Below are positions 9,688 through 52,031 of a DNA stretch of 64,000 nucleotides, piece after piece. Within the stretch, counting starts at the first letter, position 1; every line of letters starts with the position of its first letter. A program made the position numbers and the translations under genes. Under the pieces are notes generated by a model. The model was given only the letters and a program-made list of their open reading frames with translations. It was not told where the DNA came from and ran no database searches. This DNA is from Anaerolineae bacterium (GTDB lineage: Bacteria > Chloroflexota > Anaerolineae > DRVO01), in NCBI GenBank assembly GCA_013178015.1, contig JABLXR010000006.1, positions 1 through 64,000 of the forward strand, read 5' to 3'.

Positions 9688-11895
9688 ATGCTCAAGTCCG
9701 TCTCCACTGTACTGCTTGAGGGTTACGAGGGCGACGAACACGTCCAGGAGCTTCGCTGGCGATCCCTGCTGCTCGTGGCACTGGCCTGTGCTATCTTGGC
9801 CTACGTATGGCTGTTCCAGGCCGCCACTTTCCCGGCCGGATTGTCAGGGTCAGTCCTGCCGCCTCTGGGCATGGTGGCTCCACCTCTGGTGCTGACCGCT
9901 GCCACCGCTATGGTACTGGCTCTGAGGAGGTACCACGCCATTGCCCCGGCAGTGATGGCGAGCGGACTCGTGGCGTGTCTCTTCATCTGGCAAGACCCTA
10001 TGCGCTACTACCTGGCTCCCGGGGCCGTCTGCGTCATCGGCCTTCTGGGCAGCCGCCGCCTGGGGGTGCTGGCCACCCTGGCTGTCTCGTCTCTGCCTGA
10101 TGCTCCCGGTCCAATGCTCACGTCCGTCTGGCTGGTCCTCTTTGCAGTGTACCTGTCAAGCGACTCCTTCTATGCTCTCATTCATGATGCCCTGATCAGA
10201 GAAGAGGCTGCCGCTGACCTTTCTCGCGAGCTACTGGAGCGCCGTGGTGAGCTTCGGCGCCTCAACGACTCGCTTCGCAACGCTTACCTTCTCCTTGAGC
10301 GCACCAATCATGAGCTTGCTGAAGCCAGGGACGAGGCCGAAGAGGCTCGGCGGCTCAAAGCGCGGTTCGCTGCTGTGGTCAGCCATGAGTTGCGAACTCC
10401 GCTCAACCTGATTCTCGGGTTCACTGAGGCCATGCACAAGATGCCGGAGCTCTACCGAGGGGCCGTGTTCACGCCAGAGCTGCGCGGCGACATCCGCGAG
10501 GTCTACCGTAGCGCCAGATACCTGCTCTCGCTGGTAGATGACGTGCTGGACCTGTCCCGTGTAGAGCAGACCGATCTGGCTTTGATGCCGCAGGAGACTG
10601 ATATCACGACCCTCATCCGCGAAGCTACCTCCGCTGTGGCAGGGCTCTTCCGCGGGCGGCCCGTCCGCCTGAGGGAGGAGTTCTCCGACCCCATCCCCCC
10701 CTGCATCGTGGACCCCACGCGCATTCGACAGGTGCTCACCAACCTGCTGACCAATGCTGCGCGGTTCACCGCCGAAGGTGAAGTGTGTGTCAGCGCATGG
10801 TTCGACGGGAACTACCAGGAGATAGTGGTGTGCGTAAGCGACACCGGTCCTGGCCTGCCCGCGGAAGACAGAACGCGCGTGTTTGACGCTTTCTTCCAGG
10901 TGACTGGCTCCCTGGGACGGGAGTATGGTGGCTCCGGGCTCGGTCTCGCCATCTGCAAGACATTTGTGCAGCTTCATGGCGGCCGCATCTGGGTGGAGAG
11001 CGAAGTCGGTCAGGGCAGCCGGTTCTACTTCAGCCTTCCGCTTCGCCCGTACTGGCGCAGCCTTGAGAAGTGGAAGCTCCAAGGTTCCGCAGATCCCTTC
11101 GGGGACAGCTTGTTGGTGCTCGGCGATGCGGGAGGTCTATCAGAGACTCTCCAGCGATCTCTATCCGACCTGAACATCCACCACGTTGCCGACCCGCTTG
11201 ATCTGAAGGAGGCAATTGCCCAGTGGCACCCCCGATGCGTCGTCGCTTTCGGGCAACACAGTGGACGACCGGCAGCTGAGTCCCTCGAGGGCTTGGCAGC
11301 TTGGCCGGGGCTGCCGCTTCTGCTCTGCGAGTTGCCGGATGGCAAGCCCCTTTCATCCTACCCACAGATCAGGGGAGTCCTGCGCAAACCAATCGCACAA
11401 CGGGCCTTGGTGCAAGCCGTGGACGAGCTGGGCCCGGTGCGCACCCTACTGGCGGTGGATGATGAAGAGGGCATGACGAGGCTCATACAGCGGATGCTCT
11501 CGCAGGCCCGGCCACATGTCTCAGTCCTAGCCGCTCACGATGGCGATGAAGCTCTCTCTGCTCTGCGCCAGTTCCGACCTGACGCTCTGGTTCTAGATCT
11601 GGCGATGCCGGGCAGGGATGGTCTATCACTATTGGAGGCTATGGCAAGCGAGAGCCTGGCCAACATACCCGTGGTTGTCCTCACTGGCCTGGGCGAACAT
11701 GGAGACGAGATAGCAGTCAGGCGTGTCGCTATCCAGTCCTTGCCTGGCCTTCGCGAGACGGAATTCATAGGCATCCTGCAGAGCCTGGCGCAGACGGCTC
11801 GGCCTTCGTATTTGGGACAAGCCGCGGCAGCTGACTTCTGCGACCCCGAGCCAGCCCAGCGCTCGCTGGCGCTTGACCCTCGTGATGGGAGGTGA
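9688..11895 (+). CDS. Hybrid histidine kinase 1 with two half-degenerate receivers
   Basis: 735 residues. About six membrane helices (25-160) without a large sensor domain, a coiled coil (172-228), HisKA with H233 (SHELRTPLN), HATPase with N356, D385TG and GSGLGLAI (about 415-422). Then two receiver-like domains. The first (about 472-582) keeps the beta5 Lys (LRKP, K567) but has Phe where the phosphorylated Asp belongs (VVAFGQ). The second (about 586-700) has the acidic pair DD 591-592 and D637 (LDLAMPG) but no Lys. ATG 9688 follows GGAGGCTCG. It probably signals to the adjacent response regulator; the signal is unknown. It is divergent from sugar operon 1 and paralogous to the kinase at 24367. 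Confidence 0.9.
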   Translation: MLKSVSTVLLEGYEGDEHVQELRWRSLLLVALACAILAYVWLFQAATFPAGLSGSVLPPLGMVAPPLVLTAATAMVLALRRYHAIAPAVMASGLVACLFIWQDPMRYYLAPGAVCVIGLLGSRRLGVLATLAVSSLPDAPGPMLTSVWLVLFAVYLSSDSFYALIHDALIREEAAADLSRELLERRGELRRLNDSLRNAYLLLERTNHELAEARDEAEEARRLKARFAAVVSHELRTPLNLILGFTEAMHKMPELYRGAVFTPELRGDIREVYRSARYLLSLVDDVLDLSRVEQTDLALMPQETDITTLIREATSAVAGLFRGRPVRLREEFSDPIPPCIVDPTRIRQVLTNLLTNAARFTAEGEVCVSAWFDGNYQEIVVCVSDTGPGLPAEDRTRVFDAFFQVTGSLGREYGGSGLGLAICKTFVQLHGGRIWVESEVGQGSRFYFSLPLRPYWRSLEKWKLQGSADPFGDSLLVLGDAGGLSETLQRSLSDLNIHHVADPLDLKEAIAQWHPRCVVAFGQHSGRPAAESLEGLAAWPGLPLLLCELPDGKPLSSYPQIRGVLRKPIAQRALVQAVDELGPVRTLLAVDDEEGMTRLIQRMLSQARPHVSVLAAHDGDEALSALRQFRPDALVLDLAMPGRDGLSLLEAMASESLANIPVVVLTGLGEHGDEIAVRRVAIQSLPGLRETEFIGILQSLAQTARPSYLGQAAAADFCDPEPAQRSLALDPRDGR

Positions 11896-11931
11896 ACTCT
11901 GCAGGAGCAGTCGAAGATTACTGAGGAAGAT

Positions 11932-13074
11932 GTGCGGGAGCTCCTCGGCGGGCTCTACGACAACGCCTACTTGAGCCAGCACCGCCTGTTGCCCATGCTG
12001 GTCGAGTCGCCCTCGCCCGACCCTGGATTCAGAGCTCAGCAGCTGCGCAGTCTGGTCATCGACACCGTCAACTCCCTCTGGCCGGCGGGAAGGCCATCCA
12101 CAGGCGATAGAAAGCAGCGGGCCTGCCGCGCACTGGCCTATCGCTACCTCGACGGCCTGGCAAACGCTGACATTCGAAAGCGACTGGCCATCTCCGAGAG
12201 GCAGCTGTTCCGAGACCTTAGCCTTGGAGTGCACCTTCTGGCTGTGGCTCTGTCCGCCCGCGCGGGCCGGCGGCCCGAGCCCAGTGAAGAGGCGCTAGCT
12301 GCCAGCTTGAGCAGAGTTGGCCTGAGACTGGAGCGGCTGTCCCTGCAAGAGGTGTGTTCCCAGGCGCTTCCGGTGGCGGAGAAGCTGGCGACCAAGCTGG
12401 ACAAGAAGCTGGTCGTCGAGGATGGTAGCAGCGGCGATTCCTTAGCTGTTGCCGATATGGCCCTGTCCCGTCAGGCTCTTATCGTGGTGCTAGCCTACGC
12501 TCTCCGCGCCGCAAGGTCAGAAGTGCTGCTCGAGCAGACCACCGGTACACAGACTGAGATCATCACCGTCCGGTTCGAAACGGATCCACAGCGCCTTGAG
12601 GACAGTGATCCAGAGGCACTGCACCTGGCCCGGCAGTTGCTCGAGCAGCAGGGCGGTTCTCTGCAAGTCTCTACCGCTGGCGAGCAGGTCATATGTCTTC
12701 ACTGGCCCAAGTTCCAGTCTCCCGCCATCCTCGTGGTGGAGGACGACCCCGGCATGCTGCGCCTCTTTGGCCGTTACCTTGGCGGGCACGGGTATCGGGT
12801 GATCGGGCTCTCAGACGGCTCGAGAGCCGTCGAACTCGCCCGCGAGAACCGGGTGCGTCTGGTGATACTGGACGTAATGATGCGCGGCATGGATGGGTGG
12901 GCAGTGCTGCAGCGGCTGAAGGCCAGCCCCGACACGCAGAGTGTCCCCGTTCTAGTCTGTTCAGTGATCAACGAGCCGCACCTAGCCAGCGTGTTGGGGG
13001 CAGAGATGCTCCTGAGGAAGCCGGTAACGGGAGAGCAGCTGCTGGAGGCTGTGGCCACCATCGTGGGCATATGA
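11932..13074 (+). CDS. Response regulator 1: HTH, degenerate HATPase, receiver
   Basis: About 380 residues. A sigma-70 region 4-like helix-turn-helix lies at about 62-105 (RYLDGLANADIRKRLAISER). The middle region (about 125-260) resembles a decayed HATPase: LSRQALIVVLAYALRAA in the N-box position, LHLARQLLEQQGG in the G-box position. The C-terminal receiver (about 263-380) has acidic EDD, phospho-Asp in LDVMMRG and Lys in LRKPV, so it looks functional. The start is uncertain: GTG 11932, or non-standard CTG 11899, which is 6 nt after GGAGG (11888-11892) and restores the N-terminal length of the paralogue at 26462-27676. The CTG start would lie 4 nt past the kinase stop, implying tight coupling. 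Confidence 0.85.
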   Translation: MRELLGGLYDNAYLSQHRLLPMLVESPSPDPGFRAQQLRSLVIDTVNSLWPAGRPSTGDRKQRACRALAYRYLDGLANADIRKRLAISERQLFRDLSLGVHLLAVALSARAGRRPEPSEEALAASLSRVGLRLERLSLQEVCSQALPVAEKLATKLDKKLVVEDGSSGDSLAVADMALSRQALIVVLAYALRAARSEVLLEQTTGTQTEIITVRFETDPQRLEDSDPEALHLARQLLEQQGGSLQVSTAGEQVICLHWPKFQSPAILVVEDDPGMLRLFGRYLGGHGYRVIGLSDGSRAVELARENRVRLVILDVMMRGMDGWAVLQRLKASPDTQSVPVLVCSVINEPHLASVLGAEMLLRKPVTGEQLLEAVATIVGI

Positions 13075-13194: not shown

Positions 13195-13335
13195 ATGGCG
13201 CCTCCTCCTGGCGCCAGGGCGTACCATCGGGTGCTCAAGCTCGCCCGCACCATCGCCGACCTGGCCGGCAGCCAGGCGATCGCCACCGTCCACCTGGCCG
13301 AGGCGCTGCAGTACCGGCAACGGGCGGTGGGGTAG
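13195..13335 (+). pseudogene. Duplicated 3' fragment of comM
   Basis: Bases 13211-13316 are identical to 2286-2391 of comM (106/106 by eye) and encode the C-terminal helical part ([19 protein letters not shown]...). The copy is in frame behind an ATG at 13195 and ends at TAG 13333, giving a 45-codon frame; GGAG upstream is too close to be a convincing ribosome-binding site. The rest of the 13075-13606 interval contains no other supportable gene. It is read as a non-functional remnant of a duplication or recombination. Confidence 0.85.
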
Positions 13336-13606: not shown

Positions 13607-16363
13607 ATGAATGAGGCTGACCCACTTATCCGCACTAAGCTCCGCCTGCCCTTCACCCGCTCGGGGCTCGTCGCCCGACCGCGGCTCCAGCGACAGATCG
13701 CTCAAGGGCTGCAAGGCCCCGTCACTCTCATCACCGCCCCTGCCGGCTTCGGCAAGACTACCCTGGTGGCATCGTGTGTTGTCGGCTCCGGAATGCCTGT
13801 AGCCTGGCTGTCTCTCGACAAGGACGACAACCGGCCGGGGCGATTCCTCAGCTACCTGGTTGCTGCTCTGCAGGAGGCCGACAGCCGAATCGGGCGGCAG
13901 GCTGCGCCGCTCTTGGCATCACGACAAGCACCGCCTGAAGCGGTGCTCACCAGTCTCATCAATGACTTGGATGCCTGCGATGGGCAGATCGCTCTCGTAC
14001 TGGACGATTACCAGGCGATCAGCAGCGAGGCCGTGCACGAGCAAGTAGCTTTCCTCCTCGAGCACTGCCCTACTGCCCTGCATCTGGTGATCGCTACCCG
14101 CTCGGACCCGTTGCTTCCGCTGGCGCGTTGGCGGGTGCGCGGCCACACCCTCGAACTTCGGGCGGCCGATCTACGCTTTACCCAGTCCGAGGCAACCCTC
14201 CACCTGAACGACGTCATGGGCCTCCGCCTGGACGCGGAATCGGTGGCAGTACTGGAAGAACGCACGGAAGGGTGGATCGCTGGCCTGCAGATGGCAGCAC
14301 TGTCCATGCGCGATCGCGAGGACGTCTCTGGGTTCATTCAGGGCTTCTCAGGCACCAACCGCTACATCATGGACTACTTGCTGGAAGAGGTGCTGGCCAG
14401 CCAGCCGCCCGAGGTCCAGCGCTTTCTGCTACACACCTCGATTCTGGAGCAGCTGTCCGCGCCACTTTGTGCAGCAGTCCTAATAGCTGAAGAGCAGGAC
14501 GATGCGGTCGCTGACGGGCTATCAGCATTCGCCGGGCTTCCCACCTCCTCGGCCTGCCAGCAGGTCCTCGAGTACGCGGAGCGGGCGCAGCTGTTCCTGG
14601 TACCCCTGGATGATGAACGGATCTGGTATCGCTACCATCATCTGTTCGCCGACCTGCTGCGTACACAACTGCAGAAGTCTCTCGGCGCCCAGGGCATCGC
14701 CCGGCTGCACGTCCGCGCCGCCGACTGGCACGGACAGCATGGCTCGGTACTGGAAGCGATCAGTCATGCCTCCAAGGCCTGGGACGACGAGAGGGTCGAG
14801 CGCTTCATAGCGCAGCACTACATGGAACTGGTAAGCCAGGGCGAGCAGTCCTGGTTGCGTACCTGGACGGGGAAGCTGGACCGGGAACTGGTGCACAGCC
14901 GCCCCCTGCTATGCATCTATGAAGCATACAGCCACTCCTGGTTCGGCGAACTGGACGAAGCTGATCTGCTGCTGGAAGAGGCTGAGAGGCGCATTCGCTC
15001 TGAGATCTCGGCACCCGACGCGCACTCGATGGAGGTGCTCCTCGCCTATGTAAGAAGCCGCGTCACCGCCATGCGCGGAGATATCCAACGAGCCATCCAG
15101 TATTGCCTTGCGGCCCGCGCCGGCGTCCCTGCTGGCCATCTGGCCCTGCAACTGGACACCGGCATCACACTCGGATACGAATACTTCTTGGCTGGTGACT
15201 ACGATAACGCCGCCCCGGTGCTAAAGGACACGGTCCGATTGGGGGTTGCGGCCGGTGCCGTCATCAACACCGTGGCCGCGGCTTGCCTTCTGGCCAGGCT
15301 GCACGCCGTCCAGGGCAGGTTGCACGAGTCGCTTGGCACCTACCAGATGGCTGCGCAAGCAATCCCTGAGGCGGGGGGCCAGCATCTCGGCGCCAGGGCC
15401 CTGATCGAGGTCGGCCTGGCAGATGTGCTTTGCGAGTGGAATGACCTGGTGGCTGCTCTGGCTCACGTGAAGCAAGGCCTGGCCCTGCTTCCCTTCTGGG
15501 ACAAGGCAGACGATTGGGTCCTGGCCTACATCACTCTGGCTCGGATCAGTCTGGCCCTGGCGCGCAGGGGCGACGCGATAGAAGCCGTAGAAAGAGCAGC
15601 CCAGCTCGCGCAGGCGAGGGGCATCTTCTCCGAAGCTCGAGGCGCGGTCGAGGCCGCCCAGGCCAGGCTGTGGCTGGCCCGAGGCGAGCTGCGGCAAGCC
15701 TACCGTTGGGCAGCATCGTGGGAGGAGCGCTCCGCCACGGAGGGTGCGTTTCGGTTCGAGCACGAGGTGGCCCACATTGCCCGGGCCAGGGTGCTCATGG
15801 CGCAGAGCAGGCCCAACGCAGCCATCGGTCTGCTGCTGGATCTTGAGGAGACGGCCCGGTCAGCAGGACGGATGGGCCGAGTCATCGAGATCCTTCTCCT
15901 CAAGACACGGGCGATGTGGCACATGGGCGATTCCGAGTCTGCCCTTCAGGAATTGACCGGTTGTCTCGCTCTGGCCGAGCCCGCCGGTTACGTACGGGTC
16001 TTCCTGGACGAGGACCGACCCATGCGGACGCTGCTGTCTCAGTGGCTAGCCCGTGCCAGCCCCGGCTCGCTTCGAGACTACGCTGTCCGTCTGCTTTGCC
16101 AGTTCGACGCCGAACCACAGGCAGTGACGGCAACGCCGGCGAAGGACGCCCCAGTCGGCGACCTGGCCGAGCCACTGAGCCAGCGCGAGCTGGAGGTTCT
16201 CCGCCTGCTAGCCCTGGGCAGAACCAACAAGGAGATCGCCCGCCAGCTCGTCGTGGCGCCCGGCACAGTAAAAGCCCACACGGCCAGCATCTACCGCAAG
16301 CTGGACGTTGCCAACCGGTCCCAGGCGGTGGCCCGCGCCAGAGAGCTCGACATCCTCCCCTGA
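13607..16363 (+). CDS. MalT-like LuxR family transcriptional regulator
   Basis: 918 residues of the large ATP-binding LuxR (LAL/MalT, STAND ATPase) class. Walker A APAGFGKTT (K50), Walker B IALVLDDY (about 125-133), a winged-helix/arm region, a long TPR-like helical region (about 400-830), and a C-terminal LuxR HTH (about 855-915, LSQRELEVLRLLALGRTNKEIA). MalT itself is activated by ATP plus maltotriose; homologues sense diverse inducers. Start ATG 13607 gives the usual DPLIRTKLRLP N-terminus. It stands alone between two-component module 1 and the DUF4097-like genes, so the regulon cannot be assigned from position. Confidence 0.93.
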   Translation: MNEADPLIRTKLRLPFTRSGLVARPRLQRQIAQGLQGPVTLITAPAGFGKTTLVASCVVGSGMPVAWLSLDKDDNRPGRFLSYLVAALQEADSRIGRQAAPLLASRQAPPEAVLTSLINDLDACDGQIALVLDDYQAISSEAVHEQVAFLLEHCPTALHLVIATRSDPLLPLARWRVRGHTLELRAADLRFTQSEATLHLNDVMGLRLDAESVAVLEERTEGWIAGLQMAALSMRDREDVSGFIQGFSGTNRYIMDYLLEEVLASQPPEVQRFLLHTSILEQLSAPLCAAVLIAEEQDDAVADGLSAFAGLPTSSACQQVLEYAERAQLFLVPLDDERIWYRYHHLFADLLRTQLQKSLGAQGIARLHVRAADWHGQHGSVLEAISHASKAWDDERVERFIAQHYMELVSQGEQSWLRTWTGKLDRELVHSRPLLCIYEAYSHSWFGELDEADLLLEEAERRIRSEISAPDAHSMEVLLAYVRSRVTAMRGDIQRAIQYCLAARAGVPAGHLALQLDTGITLGYEYFLAGDYDNAAPVLKDTVRLGVAAGAVINTVAAACLLARLHAVQGRLHESLGTYQMAAQAIPEAGGQHLGARALIEVGLADVLCEWNDLVAALAHVKQGLALLPFWDKADDWVLAYITLARISLALARRGDAIEAVERAAQLAQARGIFSEARGAVEAAQARLWLARGELRQAYRWAASWEERSATEGAFRFEHEVAHIARARVLMAQSRPNAAIGLLLDLEETARSAGRMGRVIEILLLKTRAMWHMGDSESALQELTGCLALAEPAGYVRVFLDEDRPMRTLLSQWLARASPGSLRDYAVRLLCQFDAEPQAVTATPAKDAPVGDLAEPLSQRELEVLRLLALGRTNKEIARQLVVAPGTVKAHTASIYRKLDVANRSQAVARARELDILP

Positions 16364-16506
16364 GATCCCCACACACGCCGCAGTGGCCAGACGCCACGCG
16401 CCAGCGCCCTAAACCCTCCGGGTAAACCACAGATATCCCCTTTGGCAGATGCGGGCTTCCTCGCTGCGCGCGAGACTAGGGCCGTACATCGGCAAGGAGG
16501 GCCACG

Positions 16507-16731
16507 GTGCCGCAATGGTATGAGATCACAGTCAGGGGCCATCTCGATCCGCGCTGGTCGGTGAGGTTCGCCGACCTGCAAGTGACGCACCTGGAGGGGA
16601 ATGCAACCCGGCTGTCCGGCCTACTCCCGGATCAGGCGGCGCTCCACGGGCTACTGGAGCGCATACGCGACCTCAACCTGACCCTGATCTCCGTTACCTG
16701 CGGCGGTCCTTCTACCGAGTGGCGCGAATGA
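16507..16731 (+). CDS. Small conserved protein of unknown function
   Basis: 74 residues with GTG start preceded by AAGGAGG. The pattern YEITVRGHLDPRWSVRF ... THLEGNATRLSGLLPDQAALHGLLERIRDLNLTLISV resembles a widespread family of 65-80 residue soluble proteins in actinobacteria and Chloroflexota with no known function, often near regulators or ATP-binding LuxR genes. No signal peptide or metal site is visible. It overlaps the upstream extension of the next frame, so the two are probably co-translated. Confidence 0.75.
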   Translation: MPQWYEITVRGHLDPRWSVRFADLQVTHLEGNATRLSGLLPDQAALHGLLERIRDLNLTLISVTCGGPSTEWRE

Positions 16732-16748
16732 TAGGCATGGAGGGAGAC

Positions 16749-17513
16749 ATGACTAGTCTAGCCGCCGGTTCCCGCACTATGGCCGTGATGATCTGCCTTA
16801 TCCTACTGCTTGCCGCCACAATTGGCCTGGCCTCTTGCGCAAGCGCAACCGGAGACGTTCTCACCTACGATCTGGTGGAGCCTCTCAATGGCGTGACGTC
16901 TGCCAGGTTCAACATCGACGCAGGCAACGGCAACCTCACCATTGACTGGCTCACCGGAGGCGAGCCGCTGCTGGCAGGGGGCACCCTGCAGTACCTGGAA
17001 AGGCAAGGGCAGCCCATGCGGACTCTGGTCTCGTTTCTCGGCGAGGCTACGCTAACACTGGAGGGAGGGGATCAGGGACAGTCCTGGTTCCGCCTGCCTT
17101 GGGCAGCCTGCAACGGGGCCACCGAGTGGAACATCCACCTCAATCCCACAGTCTCGTCCGATATCACCGCCCACAGCAACGGCGGCAACGTCAGGCTGAA
17201 CCTGGCCAGCATGGCTGTCACCAGAGTCACGGCCGATACCGGCGGAGGCAACATGGAAGTGATCCTGCCCGACAACGCCACCAACCTCACCGTCTCTGCC
17301 AAGACGGGCGCGGGAAACGTACTGGTCAGCCTCCCAAGCGGCCTCGCAGCACGCATCCACGCTACCACCGGACTGGGTAAGGTGATCGTGGACCCGAGCT
17401 TCAGCCAGACCGACAAACACACCTACCAATCATCCGACTACGATACCGCCGCCAACAGGGTCGAGCTCACCCTCAGCAGCGGCGCGGGCAACGTGAACGT
17501 CACCACCAACTAA
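16749..17513 (+). CDS. DUF4097-like lipoprotein, tandem copy 1
   Basis: About 254 residues. ATG 16749 is chosen because GGAGGGA lies just upstream and it begins a signal sequence (MAVMICLILLLAATIGLASC, split) with lipobox LASC. The mature part is a series of short beta-strand repeats rich in G-N-L/V-x-V (GNGNLTIDW, GGNVRLNLAS, GGGNMEVILPD, GAGNVLVSLPS, GAGNVNVTT), typical of DUF4097 / 'toast rack' beta-helical adhesin-like folds. Such proteins are often attached outside the cell and encoded near envelope-stress regulators; the biochemical role is unknown. The region 16855-17508 is duplicated almost perfectly 712 bp downstream. Confidence 0.8.
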   Translation: MTSLAAGSRTMAVMICLILLLAATIGLASCASATGDVLTYDLVEPLNGVTSARFNIDAGNGNLTIDWLTGGEPLLAGGTLQYLERQGQPMRTLVSFLGEATLTLEGGDQGQSWFRLPWAACNGATEWNIHLNPTVSSDITAHSNGGNVRLNLASMAVTRVTADTGGGNMEVILPDNATNLTVSAKTGAGNVLVSLPSGLAARIHATTGLGKVIVDPSFSQTDKHTYQSSDYDTAANRVELTLSSGAGNVNVTTN

Positions 17514-18220
17514 GGCCTGGATCCCGATCGGTCCGGCATGACAAGGAGATGCCACCATGGCGAAAAACGTTCTCACCTACGATCTGGTGGAGCCTCTCAA
17601 TGGCGCCACGTCTGCCAGGTTCAACATCGACGCAGGCGACGGCAACCTCACCATTGACTGGCTCACCGGAGGCGAGCCGCTGCTGGCAGGGGGCACCCTG
17701 CAGTACCTGGAAAGGCAAGGGCAGCCCATGCGGACTCTGGTCTCGTTTCTCGGCGAGGCTACGCTAACACTGGAGGGAGGGGATCAGGGACAGTCCTGGT
17801 TCCGCCTGCCTTGGGCAGCCTGCAACGGGGCCACCGAGTGGAACATCCACCTCAATCCCACAGTCTCGTCCGATATCACCGCCCACAGCAACGGCGGCAA
17901 CGTCAGGCTGAACCTGGCCAGCATGGCTGTCACCAGAGTCACGGCCGATACCGGCGGAGGCAACATGGAAGTGATCCTGCCCGACAACGCCACCAACCTC
18001 ACCGTCTCTGCCAAGACGGGCGCGGGAAACGTACTGGTCAGCCTCCCAAGCGGCCTCGCAGCACGCATCCACGCTACCACCGGACTGGGTAAGGTGATCG
18101 TGGACCCGAGCTTCAGCCAGACCGACAAACACACCTACCAATCATCCGACTACGATACCGCCGCCAACAGGGTCGAGCTCACCCTCAGCAGCGGCGCGGG
18201 CAACGTGAACGTCACCACCA
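16855..18220 (+). repeat. 654-bp near-identical tandem duplication, 712-bp period
   Basis: 16855-17508 and 17567-18220 match with about three substitutions seen by eye: GTG to GCC at the NGV codon (two bases) and AAC to GAC at the GNG codon. The duplication covers the mature domain but not the lipoprotein signal. The unit boundaries fall at ACGTTCTC on the left and CACCACCA on the right. The near-lack of synonymous change indicates a very recent event, gene conversion, or an assembly artefact. Confidence 0.9.
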
Positions 18221-18225
18221 GGTAG
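17557..18225 (+). CDS. DUF4097-like protein, tandem copy 2, no signal peptide
   Basis: 222 residues, starting ATGGCGAAAAAC with its own good ribosome-binding site AAGGAGA 7-8 nt upstream. From residue 4 it repeats the mature part of the preceding lipoprotein with two amino-acid changes (V to A, N to D) and a C-terminal Asn to Arg change. The lipoprotein signal is replaced by MAKN, so this copy should stay in the cytoplasm. An exported fold made without its signal is odd; it may be a non-functional duplicate, a moonlighting form, or recent and still expressed by accident. Confidence 0.75.
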   Translation: MAKNVLTYDLVEPLNGATSARFNIDAGDGNLTIDWLTGGEPLLAGGTLQYLERQGQPMRTLVSFLGEATLTLEGGDQGQSWFRLPWAACNGATEWNIHLNPTVSSDITAHSNGGNVRLNLASMAVTRVTADTGGGNMEVILPDNATNLTVSAKTGAGNVLVSLPSGLAARIHATTGLGKVIVDPSFSQTDKHTYQSSDYDTAANRVELTLSSGAGNVNVTTR

Positions 18226-18417
18226 AGCGCGACCCCGCCCTGGCCGCTCGGCTGTCTGGGCCGGCCGGTGCGGGGTAGTACGCTCCTGGCCGCGGGTTGG
18301 TGCAGCCAGCCCTCGCGGGATGCCGTGCGCCGGGGCGGCGAGGTGACACTGCAGAAAGTCACATGCAGTCCGGTGGCGAGAACTCTCTCGGCAAACCCAC
18401 TAGCAAGGAGATAGGTC
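18226..18417. other. GC-rich spacer with possible terminator
   Basis: ACCCCGC near 18231 can pair with GCGGGGT near 18270, with an inner GGCC/GGCC-type pairing. This could act as a weak terminator after the DUF4097 pair. No U-tract and no gene seen. AAGGAG at 18405-18410 serves the next gene. Confidence 0.3.
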
Positions 18418-18906
18418 ATGGTGAATCTACTCAGAAGCCGGAACGGGATGAACATCGTCGGGCAGGGCGGCAAGATCATCCTCTTTGTTCTGCCGTCGTT
18501 GGCTATGGCCATGCTGGCTCACAGGTACCTGCCCCACATCGCGGCACTGCCCGAGAGCATCTCCTTCACCAGACCCCTCGGGTACGTGCTGCTTGTTCCT
18601 GGGCTGCTCCTCTGGGGGGCCGCAGTGGGCCAGTTGCTGGTGGGCTTCTCCGGAGGCAGGCTGGTGACCACCGGGGCTTACGGGATCGTTCGCAACCCCA
18701 TCTACTCCAGCGCCACCTTCTTCATCCTCCCGGCCGTGGCGCTGTTGACGTCCACGTGGGTGTACTTCGTCGTCTCAATCTTCCTGTACGTCGGTGTCAC
18801 CGTTTTCATCGGCGCCGAGGAGAAGAAACTGGAGAAGGCCTTCGGCAACGAGTACCGGCAGTACACTGCCAGGGTCGGCCGGCTGGTCCCGTTCAGGCGA
18901 CCTTGA
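18418..18906 (+). CDS. Isoprenylcysteine carboxylmethyltransferase-like membrane protein
   Basis: 162 residues with four to five membrane segments and the ICMT/PEMT C-terminal signature: TTGAYGIVRNPIYSS (about 82-96), then GAEEKKLEKAFGNEYRQYTARVGRLVPF. In the family these motifs bind SAM and methylate lipids or small lipophilic thiols; most bacterial members are uncharacterised. AAGGAG precedes ATG 18418. A second, divergent member lies at 36571-37038. Confidence 0.85.
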   Translation: MVNLLRSRNGMNIVGQGGKIILFVLPSLAMAMLAHRYLPHIAALPESISFTRPLGYVLLVPGLLLWGAAVGQLLVGFSGGRLVTTGAYGIVRNPIYSSATFFILPAVALLTSTWVYFVVSIFLYVGVTVFIGAEEKKLEKAFGNEYRQYTARVGRLVPFRRP

Positions 18907-23764: not shown

Positions 23765-24366
23765 TGGGTTTGTATTGGTGTGATGCGCCCAAATGCGAGC
23801 GCCAGGGACTGCAGGGGAGTGTGACGCCTGCCAGAGGGGATGCAGACCATGAGCCCATCGGTTCGCATTGCCCCGTCCACAAAGGAGCCAAACGTGAGGA
23901 ACGCACACACTGCGCGTTTGACGGCCGCACAGCCAACGACGAGCTCGTAAGGAACGCGCCGGACAGTGGGGACCTGGCCGGCGATGACTATGGCCTCTCC
24001 CCCGACGAGCAGGGGAACCGCCTCCAGGTTTCGCCACAGCTTCCGAACCGCTGCCCGGCGGGCGAACCTACACGAGTGGATCAGAGCAGGCCCGGAACCG
24101 GTGGAATGGCCGCTCGACCCCTAACGGTGTAACCGCGACAGACTCAGTGCCGTGGCTGCGCGGCTCAGTGCACGCGGCGAGGCTGGACCGATGGACCCAG
24201 TTAGAGTCGCGTGACGTGGCGGAAGAGTGGGTTGACGAAAGGGCCACCGTGTGCTTCTTGAGCTTGTCCGGTAAGACAGCAGCAAGGAGGACACAGTGGC
24301 CGAGGAAAGGATGGGGGCAGTTGAGCGGTTGTGCAAAGGGCAGGGAGGGGAACTGGAGAGGTGAGC
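23765..24366. other. Divergent intergenic region, no gene supported
   Basis: About 600 bp between the peptide-operon promoter and histidine kinase 2. A plus-strand open frame at 23737-24132 and several minus-strand frames lack ribosome-binding sites and domains and have unusual composition (many Cys/His/Arg). It probably holds the kinase-2 promoter, though no clear hexamer pair was found. GGAGAGGTGA at 24354-24363 is the kinase ribosome-binding site. Confidence 0.4.
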
Positions 24367-26559
24367 ATGGACACACAACCACGTCTAGCTCAGTCAGCGG
24401 GCGAATCCATGAGGCTCAATCAGGAGGAGATCTCCCTCTACGTGGTGAGACGCATCGCCGCGCTCGGAATCGGTGCGGCCCTCCTTGCCTGGTGGACTCT
24501 GCTGCCCTCGGCTGCACCTGAATCGGCTGTGTTCGTCTGGGTGCCCCTGATCGCTGTCATCTGGCTCTGTGCCTACCTGGCCTCCACTCAGCGGCCACGG
24601 CTCTCGGCTCACCTTACCGTCTTGGGCGCTGTGGCCGCGGTCATCATACCGGCTGTTGTCTATGGCATTGGTGAGGCCACGTGTGGCTTCGTCATTGCCG
24701 TCCTGGTGGCCGGCTCCCTCTACGGACCGTGGGTCGGCGTCGGGGTGGCCCTGGCACTCGCAGCCATCACTCCCTCACTTAGCGCTGCCCATCCCTGGCG
24801 TCTGCCGGTCATCCTCATCCTGAGCACCGGTGCCTGCCAGTGGGTGATCCTGAGGCCCCTTGCTTCGCTTCTAGAGCGGTCGTGGCAGCGAAGCGCGAGA
24901 GCCACTGAGCTGGCAGAAGCACTAAGGGACCACCAAGGCGAGCTGAACCGCGCCCTCACCGCGCTTGACCTCACTAACCGCCTGCTTCAGCGTACCAACC
25001 ACGAACTAGCAGCTGCCCGGCGGGAGGCGGAGGAGGCCCGACAACAGAGAGAGGATTTCGCCGTCAACATCAGCCACGAACTGCGCACACCCCTCAACAT
25101 CATCCTCGGCTTCACCGAGATCATGCATCAGTCCCCCGAGGTGTATGGCCAGGTACACTGGCCGCCCACCCTGCGCCGGGACCTGACCGAGATCTATCGT
25201 AGCGCCCGCTACCTCTCCGACATGGTTGACGACGTGCTCGAGCTAGCCCGGATGGAGGCATCCCTGCTGCCTATCCGGCGGGAACCAACCGACCTGGCCA
25301 CCCTCATCCGCGAAGCCGCCGACATCGCGGCCGCCCTATGGCGCGGACGGCCCATCGAGTTCATCGCCGACCTCGCCCCCGACTTGCCTTCTCTTTTCCT
25401 GGACCGCACACGAATCCGCCAGGTGCTCCTCAACCTCCTCGCCAACGCCAGCCGCTACACCGAGCAGGGGGCCATCAAGGTCTCTGCACACGTCCAGGAC
25501 ACTGACGTTCTGGTGTCGGTGGCCGACACGGGGGTGGGCATCCCGGCAGATCAGTTGGACGTCATCTTCAACGAGTTTCGCCAGGTGGACGCCTGGCGTC
25601 AGGGGGAGGCACAGGGAAAGGGCCTGGGGCTGGCGATAGCCAAGCGCTTCGTGCAGCTACACGGCGGCAGCATCTGGGCCGAGAGCGAGGTGGGCCGAGG
25701 AAGCACCTTCCACTTTACCCTGCCCCTGGAGCGCAAGGACTTCTCCCGCCTGCGTGCAGCGAACAAGGCCCCCTTGCCCACCAATCCATTCGCTAGGACG
25801 GTCATAGTCCTCGATGAGGACGAGCTATCCACGTGGCATCTGCAGCGCCACCTGGAGGGCTATCGAGTGGTGCACGCCGCCAACCCGGAGCAGCTGCCCG
25901 CCATGTGCCAGGAGATTCACCCTGACGCGGTGGTGGTCAACTCCAGGAACGCCGACAGCCGCTTGCTGGATGGCTGCAGTGCCGCGGTAGTGCGCATCGA
26001 GTGCGCCCTGCCTACCGCCGCTACCCTCCTGCAGCGGGGGCGCTTCCGCACCATTCTCAACAAGCCGGTCAGTCAGGCCGAGTTGGTCGCAGCCCTGCAG
26101 CAGGTAGTCCCGACGGGGGATGTGCTGATCGTCGACGACGATCGGGCTTTCGTACAGCTGGTGGTCCGCATCCTGGCCGCCAGCGGCGCCTCCTACCACG
26201 CTTCCTGGGCGTACTCGGCGGACGAAGGGTTGGCCAAAGCGCGCCGATCGTCCCCAGACGTTATCCTGGTAGACTTGGTCATGCCGGGCAAGAGCGGCAT
26301 GGCCATGGCCGAAGCCCTGGCCGCGGACGCCGAGCTTAGCCGCATACCCCTCATCGGCGTCACAGGGGCGGCCATGATGTTGGCCGGGAAACCCGGAGAC
26401 AGCAACCGCTTCGTCCTCGAGCGCCCCCGCGGCCTGCGGGATCAGGCGGTGATCGGCTTGATCAAGCAGTCGCTGGAGCTGGTGAGATCGGACTACTCGG
26501 CTGAGCTTGACAGCGCTCCAGGGCCGTCAGCAACTCCATCCGCGACACCGGCTTCTTGA
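24367..26559 (+). CDS. Hybrid histidine kinase 2 with two half-degenerate receivers
   Basis: 730 residues from ATG 24367 (GGAGAGGTGA upstream). Same plan as the kinase at 9688: about six membrane helices (30-165), coiled coil (172-232), HisKA H237 (SHELRTPLN), HATPase N360, D387TG, GKGLGLAI (about 417-424). First receiver (about 476-580) keeps Lys (LNKP, K566) but has Asn/Ser in place of the phospho-Asp (VVVNSR). Second (about 585-700) has DDD 590-592 and D636 (VDLVMPG) but Arg at the Lys position (LERPRG). Its 3' end overlaps the convergent response-regulator gene by 98 bp. It is flanked by transporter operons on both sides, which it may control. Confidence 0.9.
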   Translation: MDTQPRLAQSAGESMRLNQEEISLYVVRRIAALGIGAALLAWWTLLPSAAPESAVFVWVPLIAVIWLCAYLASTQRPRLSAHLTVLGAVAAVIIPAVVYGIGEATCGFVIAVLVAGSLYGPWVGVGVALALAAITPSLSAAHPWRLPVILILSTGACQWVILRPLASLLERSWQRSARATELAEALRDHQGELNRALTALDLTNRLLQRTNHELAAARREAEEARQQREDFAVNISHELRTPLNIILGFTEIMHQSPEVYGQVHWPPTLRRDLTEIYRSARYLSDMVDDVLELARMEASLLPIRREPTDLATLIREAADIAAALWRGRPIEFIADLAPDLPSLFLDRTRIRQVLLNLLANASRYTEQGAIKVSAHVQDTDVLVSVADTGVGIPADQLDVIFNEFRQVDAWRQGEAQGKGLGLAIAKRFVQLHGGSIWAESEVGRGSTFHFTLPLERKDFSRLRAANKAPLPTNPFARTVIVLDEDELSTWHLQRHLEGYRVVHAANPEQLPAMCQEIHPDAVVVNSRNADSRLLDGCSAAVVRIECALPTAATLLQRGRFRTILNKPVSQAELVAALQQVVPTGDVLIVDDDRAFVQLVVRILAASGASYHASWAYSADEGLAKARRSSPDVILVDLVMPGKSGMAMAEALAADAELSRIPLIGVTGAAMMLAGKPGDSNRFVLERPRGLRDQAVIGLIKQSLELVRSDYSAELDSAPGPSATPSATPAS

Positions 26560-27676
26560 GGCAAGCTGCCGCCCCCAGAGCCTGAGCCAAGCCGGGGTCG
26601 TGAAACACCGAGCAGACCACCACCGGCATGTCCCTCGTCTCCGGCTGAGTGTGCAGTGTCTGCAGGATGGTCCAGCCGTCCTGCTGCGGCATCATCAGGT
26701 CGAGAACGATCACCGCCGGCTTCATCCGCCGCGCCATCTCCACCGTCAGCCTGGGATCGGGGACGTTGACCATCCGCCAGCCCGGGCTATCCGCCAGGTA
26801 GCGCCGGTAGAGCTCAGCCGCCGCCTGGTTGTCCTCCACCACGAGCACCAGCCGCGGCTCCTCCACCTTCACCCGCAACCCCAAGGTAATGTCCTCGCCA
26901 GCTGTCTCCAGGTGCCAACCCAGGTGCTGAGACTCGGCCAGGCCGTGCAGAGGGCGAAGCAGATCATCCGGCAGGGAGGCAGCGGAACGGAATCGTACCT
27001 GGATGCAGACCTCGCCCCCATCCTCTCCGGCGCGAAGTTCCACCCCGGCACAGTCGCACACCTGCAAGGCCATGCTCAGGGCCTGTACCAGCACCTGCCG
27101 CAGTAGACCCTCGTCGGCGCTGATGGCCGGAAGGGCGGCCAGCTTCGTCCTCAGTGAAACACTGCGCCGCCTGGCCAGGATGGTGACGGCCTGCAGCACT
27201 TGGCGCAGGACCGCGCCCAGGTCCAGCCGGCGCGGGTGAGAGACAACCTGCCGCAGTTCGGCCTCCCAGGCTTCTTCTTCGCTGCGCTCGGGAGCTCGGC
27301 CGGAGCTGTAGGTGGTCAGCACCTTGGCCAGCTCCGCCTCGGCCCGGCGGAGCTCGCGATACGCCTGGCGCTCCCCAACTCCGAGCTCATCGGCCACCTG
27401 CTTGACGGTCATCTCCTCGAGGTACCGGAGCGAAAGAACGTGGTAGCTACGGGCACTGTGGTCCGTAAACGACGTGGACCTGACGGGGCGCAGGCGTTCG
27501 ATGGCGCTCAGCAGGGTGCGGCGTAGGAGCTGGGCGCGCAACTCCAGGTCGGTCTGAACGGCGATGTCGGGCAGCGCGCCGGCCAGGGCCCCCTGGGCGA
27601 GAACGACGTTTTCGTAGAGGTGCTCGAGCGCATCGCGCACCTCCTGCGGTCGCACTGCCGATGGGCTTGATTCCAC
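26462..27676 (-). CDS. Response regulator 2: HTH, degenerate HATPase, receiver
   Basis: 404 residues from GTG 27676. Paralogue of the regulator at 11932. The helix-turn-helix region (about 105-150, RYLEEMTVKQVADELGVGERQAYREL) is sigma-70 region 4-like. The middle domain has SADEGLLRQVLVQALSMALQV, an HATPase N-box relic lacking the Asn, and no clean ATP lid. The receiver (about 278-395) has ED, LDLMMPQQDG and LKKPVS, so it should be phosphorylatable. A short Pro/Ser/Ala tail (CQAQPSSPISPAPATA) lies in the 98 bp shared with kinase 2 on the other strand. It is divergent from sugar operon 2 (gap 283 bp) and is therefore a candidate regulator of it. Confidence 0.87.
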   Translation of the reverse strand: MESSPSAVRPQEVRDALEHLYENVVLAQGALAGALPDIAVQTDLELRAQLLRRTLLSAIERLRPVRSTSFTDHSARSYHVLSLRYLEEMTVKQVADELGVGERQAYRELRRAEAELAKVLTTYSSGRAPERSEEEAWEAELRQVVSHPRRLDLGAVLRQVLQAVTILARRRSVSLRTKLAALPAISADEGLLRQVLVQALSMALQVCDCAGVELRAGEDGGEVCIQVRFRSAASLPDDLLRPLHGLAESQHLGWHLETAGEDITLGLRVKVEEPRLVLVVEDNQAAAELYRRYLADSPGWRMVNVPDPRLTVEMARRMKPAVIVLDLMMPQQDGWTILQTLHTQPETRDMPVVVCSVFHDPGLAQALGAAACLKKPVSRMELLTALERCQAQPSSPISPAPATA

Positions 27677-46778: not shown

Positions 46779-47169
46779 TGGAGACGGAGAGGCTTCTGAC
46801 CCGAAGCTTCGTCCCGGATGGCTGGCATGCCCCGCGGGAGTTGAGCATGCAGAAGGAAGCCTCCGAGTACCCCCTCCACGACCACCAGTGGCCCACTTCT
46901 GACGAGGCGATCCGAGGAACCACCCGGTGGTTCGCCCGTATGGATGCAGGAGGGAAGGTGTCCAGAGAAGAGATGTTCCTGCCGTTCGACGACGAGAAGA
47001 TGGACGCGTACCGCAAGGAAGCCCGGGCCCGCTGGGGCACAACGTGGAAGAAGGCTGTGCTCAGGACGCCCGCTTCACCGGCTTCTAGAAGAACGTTCGG
47101 CCGGGCCTGGCCGTGTTCATGCCCGACGCCCTGAGCGTCTACCGCAAGCGCAAAACCGCCGAATCCTGA
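46779..47169 (+). pseudogene. Wrecked TipA-type MerR regulator (TipAS remnant)
   Basis: 46957-47039 matches 51614-51696 of the intact MerR gene at about 80 of 83 bases (KVSREEMFLPFDDEKMDAYR...). The middle of the TipAS domain is deleted. About 47066-47169, in another frame, encodes DARFTGF-stop-KNVRPGLAVFMPDALSVYRK, matching the C-terminus of the intact protein (DGRFSQFYDRVKPGLAQFMRD) with Tyr replaced by TAG. The leading part (46779-46950, METERLLTRSF...) has no MerR helix-turn-helix and is of unknown origin. Confidence 0.85.
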
Positions 47170-51275: not shown

Positions 51276-52031
51276 ATGGTGTACACCGTCAAGACAGTGG
51301 CAGACCTGGCGGGCGTGACCGTCCGCGCCCTGCATCACTATGACCGCATCGGCCTGCTTCAGCCGGAGTCGGTGAGTCCAGCCGGCTATCGGCTCTACTC
51401 CGACGCCGACCTGGAGCAACTACAGCAGATACTGTTCTTCCGGGAGTTGGGCTTCGGCCTCAAAGACATCCAGGCCATCCTGCACAGCCCTCGCTTCGAT
51501 CGGCGGGAGGCTCTCCTGGAGCACCGCAAGCTGCTGCTGGAGAAGAAGGCCCGGCTGGAGCGGCTGATCCACTCCGTGGAGCAGACCATTGCCGCGATGG
51601 ATGGAGCAGGAGCGGTGTCCAGAGAAGAGATGTTCCTGCCGTTTGACGACGAGAAGATGGACGAGTACCGCAAGGAAGCCCGGGCCCGGTGGGGCAGCGT
51701 GGTAGATGAATCCTACGAGGGGCTGGCCAAGCTCACCAGGGAGGAGCAGTCCGCCCTCTGGGCCGAGGCCCAGGCTATCACCCTGGGAATGGCAGACCTC
51801 GTGGGCCGTGACCCGGCTGACACCGAGGTACAGGCCCTGGTGGATCGCTGGTACCGGCTGATGAACCAGAACTTCTGGTCCTGCTCGGTAGAAGCCTTCC
51901 GCAACCTGGGGGAGATGTACGTCCAGGATGGCCGCTTCTCCCAGTTCTATGACCGGGTGAAGCCCGGCCTGGCGCAATTCATGAGAGACGCCATGCGGGC
52001 ATACTGCGACGATACGGCCTCCCGGGCCTAG
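51276..52031 (+). CDS. TipA-type MerR family transcriptional regulator
   Basis: 251 residues from ATG 51276 (GGAGGTGG adjacent; GTG 51279 equally possible). N-terminal MerR winged helix-turn-helix (VKTVADLAGVTVRALHHYDRIGLLQPE ..., about 3-72), a dimerising coiled coil (about 80-115), and a C-terminal TipAS antibiotic-recognition domain (about 120-250, DEKMDEYRKEARARWG, MADLVGRDPADTEVQ, FYDRVKPGLAQFMRDAM). TipA homologues such as Mta and SkgA activate efflux genes and themselves on binding drugs. No transporter gene adjoins, so targets may be only itself or elsewhere. Confidence 0.93.
   Translation: MVYTVKTVADLAGVTVRALHHYDRIGLLQPESVSPAGYRLYSDADLEQLQQILFFRELGFGLKDIQAILHSPRFDRREALLEHRKLLLEKKARLERLIHSVEQTIAAMDGAGAVSREEMFLPFDDEKMDEYRKEARARWGSVVDESYEGLAKLTREEQSALWAEAQAITLGMADLVGRDPADTEVQALVDRWYRLMNQNFWSCSVEAFRNLGEMYVQDGRFSQFYDRVKPGLAQFMRDAMRAYCDDTASRA

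Follow-up and report, generated by a model that had tools for sequence, protein, structure and literature searches.

The window analysed here is a stretch of 64,000 nucleotides from a draft assembly (97 contigs) of an Anaerolineae bacterium. Part of it is occupied by a cluster of five genes on the forward strand, two of which are adjacent and nearly identical over most of their length (copy 1 and copy 2). The features are as follows.

13607-16363, + strand: MalT-type (large ATP-binding LuxR) regulator, first gene of the cluster (Pfam TPR_MalT, 6.1e-58; GerE, 2.8e-19)
16507-16731, + strand: conserved small protein of 74 amino acids, GTG start (relatives by tblastn)
16749-17513, + strand: copy 1, Toastrack protein with a lipoprotein-type leader, predicted exported (sequence, LiaF-like_C match, hydropathy)
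16927-17508, + strand: perfect run of 582 bp in copy 1, identical to 17639-18220 in copy 2 (register alignment, offset 712)
17514-17556, + strand: spacer of 43 bp with AAGGAG (17543-17548), copying neither flank
17557-18225, + strand: copy 2, signal-less Toastrack protein starting MAKNVL, predicted cytosolic (sequence, hydropathy, AlphaFold2, Foldseek)
18418-18906, + strand: PEMT/ICMT-like membrane methyltransferase, at the end of the cluster (Pfam PEMT, 6.2e-8, above the gathering score)

A search of NCBIfam at E values up to 0.1 assigned no family to the 74-aa protein. Elsewhere in the window, the ORFs 9688-13074 and 24331-27676 look by eye like hybrid histidine kinases; each adjoins an ORF with a receiver-like C-terminus (on the same strand in the first case, convergent in the second), and the two kinase/receiver modules look paralogous, again by eye.

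In both copies the matches to LiaF-like_C and DUF4097 fall a little short of the Pfam gathering scores (copy 2, 28.2 bits with a cutoff of 29 and 19 with a cutoff of 22.9, respectively; copy 1, scanned from the upstream GTG at 16719, matches LiaF-like_C with an E value of 2.5e-6, slightly below the gathering score). The AlphaFold2 model of copy 2 (mean pLDDT 90.7) aligns in Foldseek with 4qrk (TM 0.88, E 6.8e-18), and a profile of 17 sequences, which takes in both window copies, matches 4qrk_A across nearly the whole domain (E 4.5e-36). Among the 17 aligned members, LiaF-like_C is matched in 14 and Toast_rack_N in nine. By model and profile, both copies are assigned to the Toastrack fold, LiaF-C/DUF4097-like, with a right-handed single-stranded beta-helix and a Toastrack N-terminal region. 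In a published report on Toastrack proteins (PMC11237479), 4QRK is named as an example of the fold and a scaffold role in envelope-stress signalling is proposed. The window proteins resemble the known Toastrack proteins (DUF4097 / DUF2154 / DUF2807; LiaG, the C-terminal part of LiaF, the solved 4QRK) in fold and profile. Unlike LiaI-LiaF, they are without the transmembrane part of those proteins, and the adjoining regulator is of the MalT type. No LiaI-LiaF-TM, PspC, PspA or LiaRS partner was found in the immediate cluster, by Pfam for the regulator, both Toastrack proteins and the PEMT/ICMT-like protein and by NCBIfam for the 74-aa protein.

The repeated body and its two N-termini

Alignment in register shows that 16855-17508 recurs at 17567-18220 as a direct tandem repeat of 654 bp, with an offset of 712 bp and 3 mismatches (16894, 16895 and 16926 in copy 1). 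Two further base differences lie in the last codon (17509-17510), which brings the coding base differences between the copies to 5 in all, and the stop codons are TAA and TAG. The repeat is bounded by the beginning of the mature domain on one side and the last codon on the other, and identity over the shared domain is 98.6%. Out of 218 shared sense codons, 215 are identical; the three that differ (V/A, N/D and N/R) all alter the residue, in two cases through a change of two bases, and silent changes number zero. The coding differences sit near both ends of the repeat and flank the perfect 582-bp run with its 193 consecutive identical codons. Random placement of three changed codons gives such a run in 0.26% of trials, a post hoc figure from a test picked after the data had been seen.

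The 654-bp repeat is far beyond chance. A scan of the whole window for direct repeats of at least 60 nt (20-nt seed) yielded just two other families, of 109 and 100 nt. The 109-bp repeat (2286-2394 and 13211-13319, 99% identical, flanks unrelated) has its first copy inside the 3' end of ORF 893-2410, which looks comM/Mg-chelatase-like, and its second between the ORF ending at 13074 and the LuxR gene starting at 13607; it reflects either another recent copying of a short segment or a seam in the assembly. The 100-nt repeat (46940-47039 and 51597-51696, 92% identical) begins with ATG, and each of its copies apparently opens one of two paralogous genes.

The N-termini of the two copies are dissimilar. 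Copy 1 has a hydrophobic leader (maximal 17-residue Kyte-Doolittle mean 2.78) ending in LASC, a motif judged lipobox-like by eye, and thus combines the hydrophobic leader and the lipobox Cys by which a lipoprotein is recognised. No hydrophobic leader is found in copy 2, where the Kyte-Doolittle value is 0.49 near the N-terminus and 1.02 over the whole protein; this copy opens with ATG GCG AAA AAC right where the shared domain begins, and AAGGAG lies 8 nt before its ATG (17557). As read from the sequence, one domain occurs here in two forms, one predicted to be exported through its leader and the other probably cytosolic. An earlier note had described a 654-bp copy with about three differences, a lipoprotein signal on copy 1 and, on copy 2, a MAKN start with its own ribosome-binding site, and the present analysis agrees with it on each of these. 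The two forms share a very recent common sequence, and the near-identity of their bodies is the clearly new part of the locus.

The spacer has no counterpart on either side. The segment 17512-17566 gave a local alignment score of 21 with 18224-18420 (shuffled mean 18.8, 95th percentile 25) and of 18 with 16600-16860 (shuffled mean 18.7, 95th percentile 24). Since the spacer copies neither flank, a single simple tandem duplication is unable to give this layout. A mobile-element origin was rejected as well: copy 2 is without a match in plasmids or viral contigs, and 16500-18420 is without a near DNA match in phages.

Related genes and pairs in other genomes

Close relatives occur in seven distinct genomes, that of the window included: three hold a pair, three the exported form only and one the cytosolic form only. 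The six further genomes are G396 (locus L034), G397 (L035; G090 gave the same match and is counted with it), G398 (L036), G399 (L037), G1155 (L064/L068) and G1189 (L067). At L036, an exported gene with a hydrophobic leader is followed after 42 bp by a signal-less MAKKVL gene (53.2% identity over the shared domain); at L067, an exported gene, lipobox-like by eye, is followed after 29 bp by a signal-less MSKKVL gene (48.3% identity). In draft assemblies, the exported form stands alone in G397, G399 and G1155, and the cytosolic form in G396. The spacers of the three pairs show no alignment with one another above shuffles (p 0.38, 0.75 and 0.12).

In the alignment, window copies included, a Lys two residues before the conserved V/I/L-L is present in 4/4 cytosolic and 0/6 exported forms. 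Early lysines are common at the starts of bacterial proteins, which lessens the weight of this likeness among the cytosolic forms. An extra beta-helix turn is common to both L067 copies, L037 and L064 and is missing from both forms elsewhere; tracking genomes and not types, it is as compatible with independent duplication as with conversion.

The search for further pairs comprised 1,947 genome searches, counting repeats, at cut-offs between 1e-3 and 1e-45; many of these sampled larger groups at random. Weaker matches in G049, G209 and G922 (33-35% identity) were left out of the close relatives, as were the distant ones of L069, L070 and L071 (about 30% identity), whose N-termini are hydrophobic and, by eye, apparently multi-pass. 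In a genome of the same genus (G001) the sole match is partial, at 25% identity. Distant Toastrack genes, with N-termini that look LiaF-like by eye, also lie side by side in L069 (5085-7323) and L070 (5620-7595), so tandem Toastrack genes are not limited to the window's family.

Conservation of the cluster was checked by tblastn against nine fetched loci. Relatives of the 74-aa protein lie directly upstream of the Toastrack gene in five (L034, L035, L036, L037 and L068; 51-71% identity), and the same five contain relatives of the regulator, located downstream of the pair in L036. Methyltransferase relatives follow the Toastrack gene in three (61% identity in L034, 71% in L035, 29% in L068). 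The regulator, the 74-aa protein and the methyltransferase are all missing from the 10.1 kb of L067 examined, and L069-L071 hold just the distant Toastrack genes with none of these three partners. As the partner genes are found in some loci only, the cluster is partly conserved.

For the phylogeny of the shared domain, a set of distinct topologies was compared using 100,000 resamplings. When the window copies are left out, the best tree groups the cytosolic form of L036 with that of L034 (support only 74), apart from its own neighbour. Forcing the L036 pair to be sisters costs 15.6 log units and is not rejected, while the same constraint on the L067 pair costs only 0.5 log units (p-AU 0.63 for that pair alone). 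With both pairs as within-genome sisters p-AU is 0.13, and with a clean exported/cytosolic split it is 0.08; none of the tested topologies is rejected, and the tree with a single old split is slightly worse by p-AU than the one with two independent duplications. An earlier p-AU of 0.024 against within-genome pairs is withdrawn, one topology having been entered twice and scored 0.024 and 0.118. Core trees that include the window copies are poorly supported.

A mosaic test of the window core against exported and cytosolic profiles, apparently significant, is void: leave-one-out controls with exported forms show the same dip, and in the control 9 of 56 splits, among them the true one, are equally extreme. 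The test having failed its control, we make no claim on the direction of conversion. A tally of residues in the window core relative to L036 (40 exported-like, 30 cytosolic-like) is set aside likewise.

Origin of the near-identity

We propose that the two genes are probably an older exported/cytosolic Toastrack pair that was very recently homogenised by gene conversion. The ancestral state would be a tandem pair, one protein exported or anchored and the other cytosolic, within a cluster headed by a MalT-type regulator. Gene conversion, by ordinary homologous recombination between genes 712 bp apart, would recently have made the bodies nearly identical and, homology being confined to the mature domain, would have left each gene its own leader and start site. 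The same confinement would explain why the shared tract stops at the domain limits and why the residual differences lie near its edges. Since even the edges are nearly identical, more than one conversion event, or a long history of conversion, would be required. Conversion between copies as diverged as those of L036 would be rare, so the window's pair must, on this account, have been kept similar by repeated events. In reading the locus as a converted pair, we infer that the three pairs have a common origin, that conversion was at work, where the products are located and that they function as matched scaffolds.

The recent tandem duplication put forward in the earlier note stands as regards the exported and cytosolic forms and their very recent shared sequence, but the newness of the pair itself becomes less likely given the diverged pairs elsewhere (53% and 48%). 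Its suggestion that duplication and relocation took place in one step is probably wrong: the spacer copies neither flank, and the same gene order is present, diverged, in two other genomes.

It is possible, if rather unlikely, that the pair arose by an independent recent duplication, in which tandem copying or template switching placed a second version of the exported gene's mature part downstream of a new ribosome-binding site and start codon. The product would then be a cytosolic by-product or a new isoform, and the pairs in other genomes would have arisen separately. The absence of synonymous differences in 218 sense codons is in line with such an origin, as are the three other genomes with the exported gene alone, the insertion that both L067 copies share with exported-only relatives, the failure of the three spacers to align, and the low cost of L067 sisters (0.5 log units) together with a p-AU of 0.13 for both pairs as sisters. 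However, a second event would be needed to place a spacer, an AAGGAG and an ATG exactly at the domain edge, the layout with its M[AS]K[KN]VL start would need three separate origins, and the clustering of the differences near the repeat edges also tells against this origin. An assembly or binning artefact, in which the contig repeats a single real body, is very unlikely. The assembly is a 97-contig draft whose window also holds the near-identical 109-bp repeat, and an identical run of 582 bp exceeds the length of common short reads; yet the leaders, the ends and 5 coding bases differ, and the unique spacer carries a plausible ribosome-binding site and start, features not easily produced by an assembler that duplicates a single body. 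Two other assemblies, moreover, have the same layout.

For the homogenised pair, both genes may be co-transcribed and respond to the MalT-type regulator. Copy 1 would carry a lipid and be turned to the outside and copy 2 would stay inside, and matched beta-helix scaffolds on both faces of the membrane could assemble signalling complexes for envelope state. That selection and recurrent conversion keep such inside/outside scaffolds matched, reporting envelope state to the MalT-type regulator, is a doubtful extension of the proposal, to which we give little weight.

Parallels and implications

A close parallel is mtrA-1/mtrA-2 of Methanococcales and Methanomicrobiales, described as adjacent paralogues that are unlike in their membrane parts while gene conversion has homogenised their soluble domains (PMC4632066). 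The likeness lies in the neighbouring position in one operon, the differing membrane part and the homogenised soluble domain. There, the protein is an archaeal enzyme subunit and conversion is reported over very long times; the window offers a different protein family, a single genome with a single visible homogenisation, and a cleavable-type leader in one copy with none in the other. In long-lasting concerted evolution in prokaryotes (PMC6053082), within-genome paralogues are likewise far closer to each other than to their counterparts elsewhere; here, in contrast, the homogenised pair is found in one genome and the other two pairs are diverged. Relocalisation after duplication, for instance in Arabidopsis (PMC4202327), is similar in that duplicates differ mainly in their targeting sequence, but the targeting difference in the window is probably older than the shared body sequence. 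The window pair is probably a case of concerted evolution and not a newborn relocated duplicate.

The locus provides a compact natural example of a shared body with different targeting, most simply reached through conversion that stops at the leader. It also warns that near-identical neighbouring genes need not be new duplicates. For the Toastrack family, the lipoprotein-type copy 1, predicted to be exported, is relevant to the published claim of an intracellular location for Toastrack domains.
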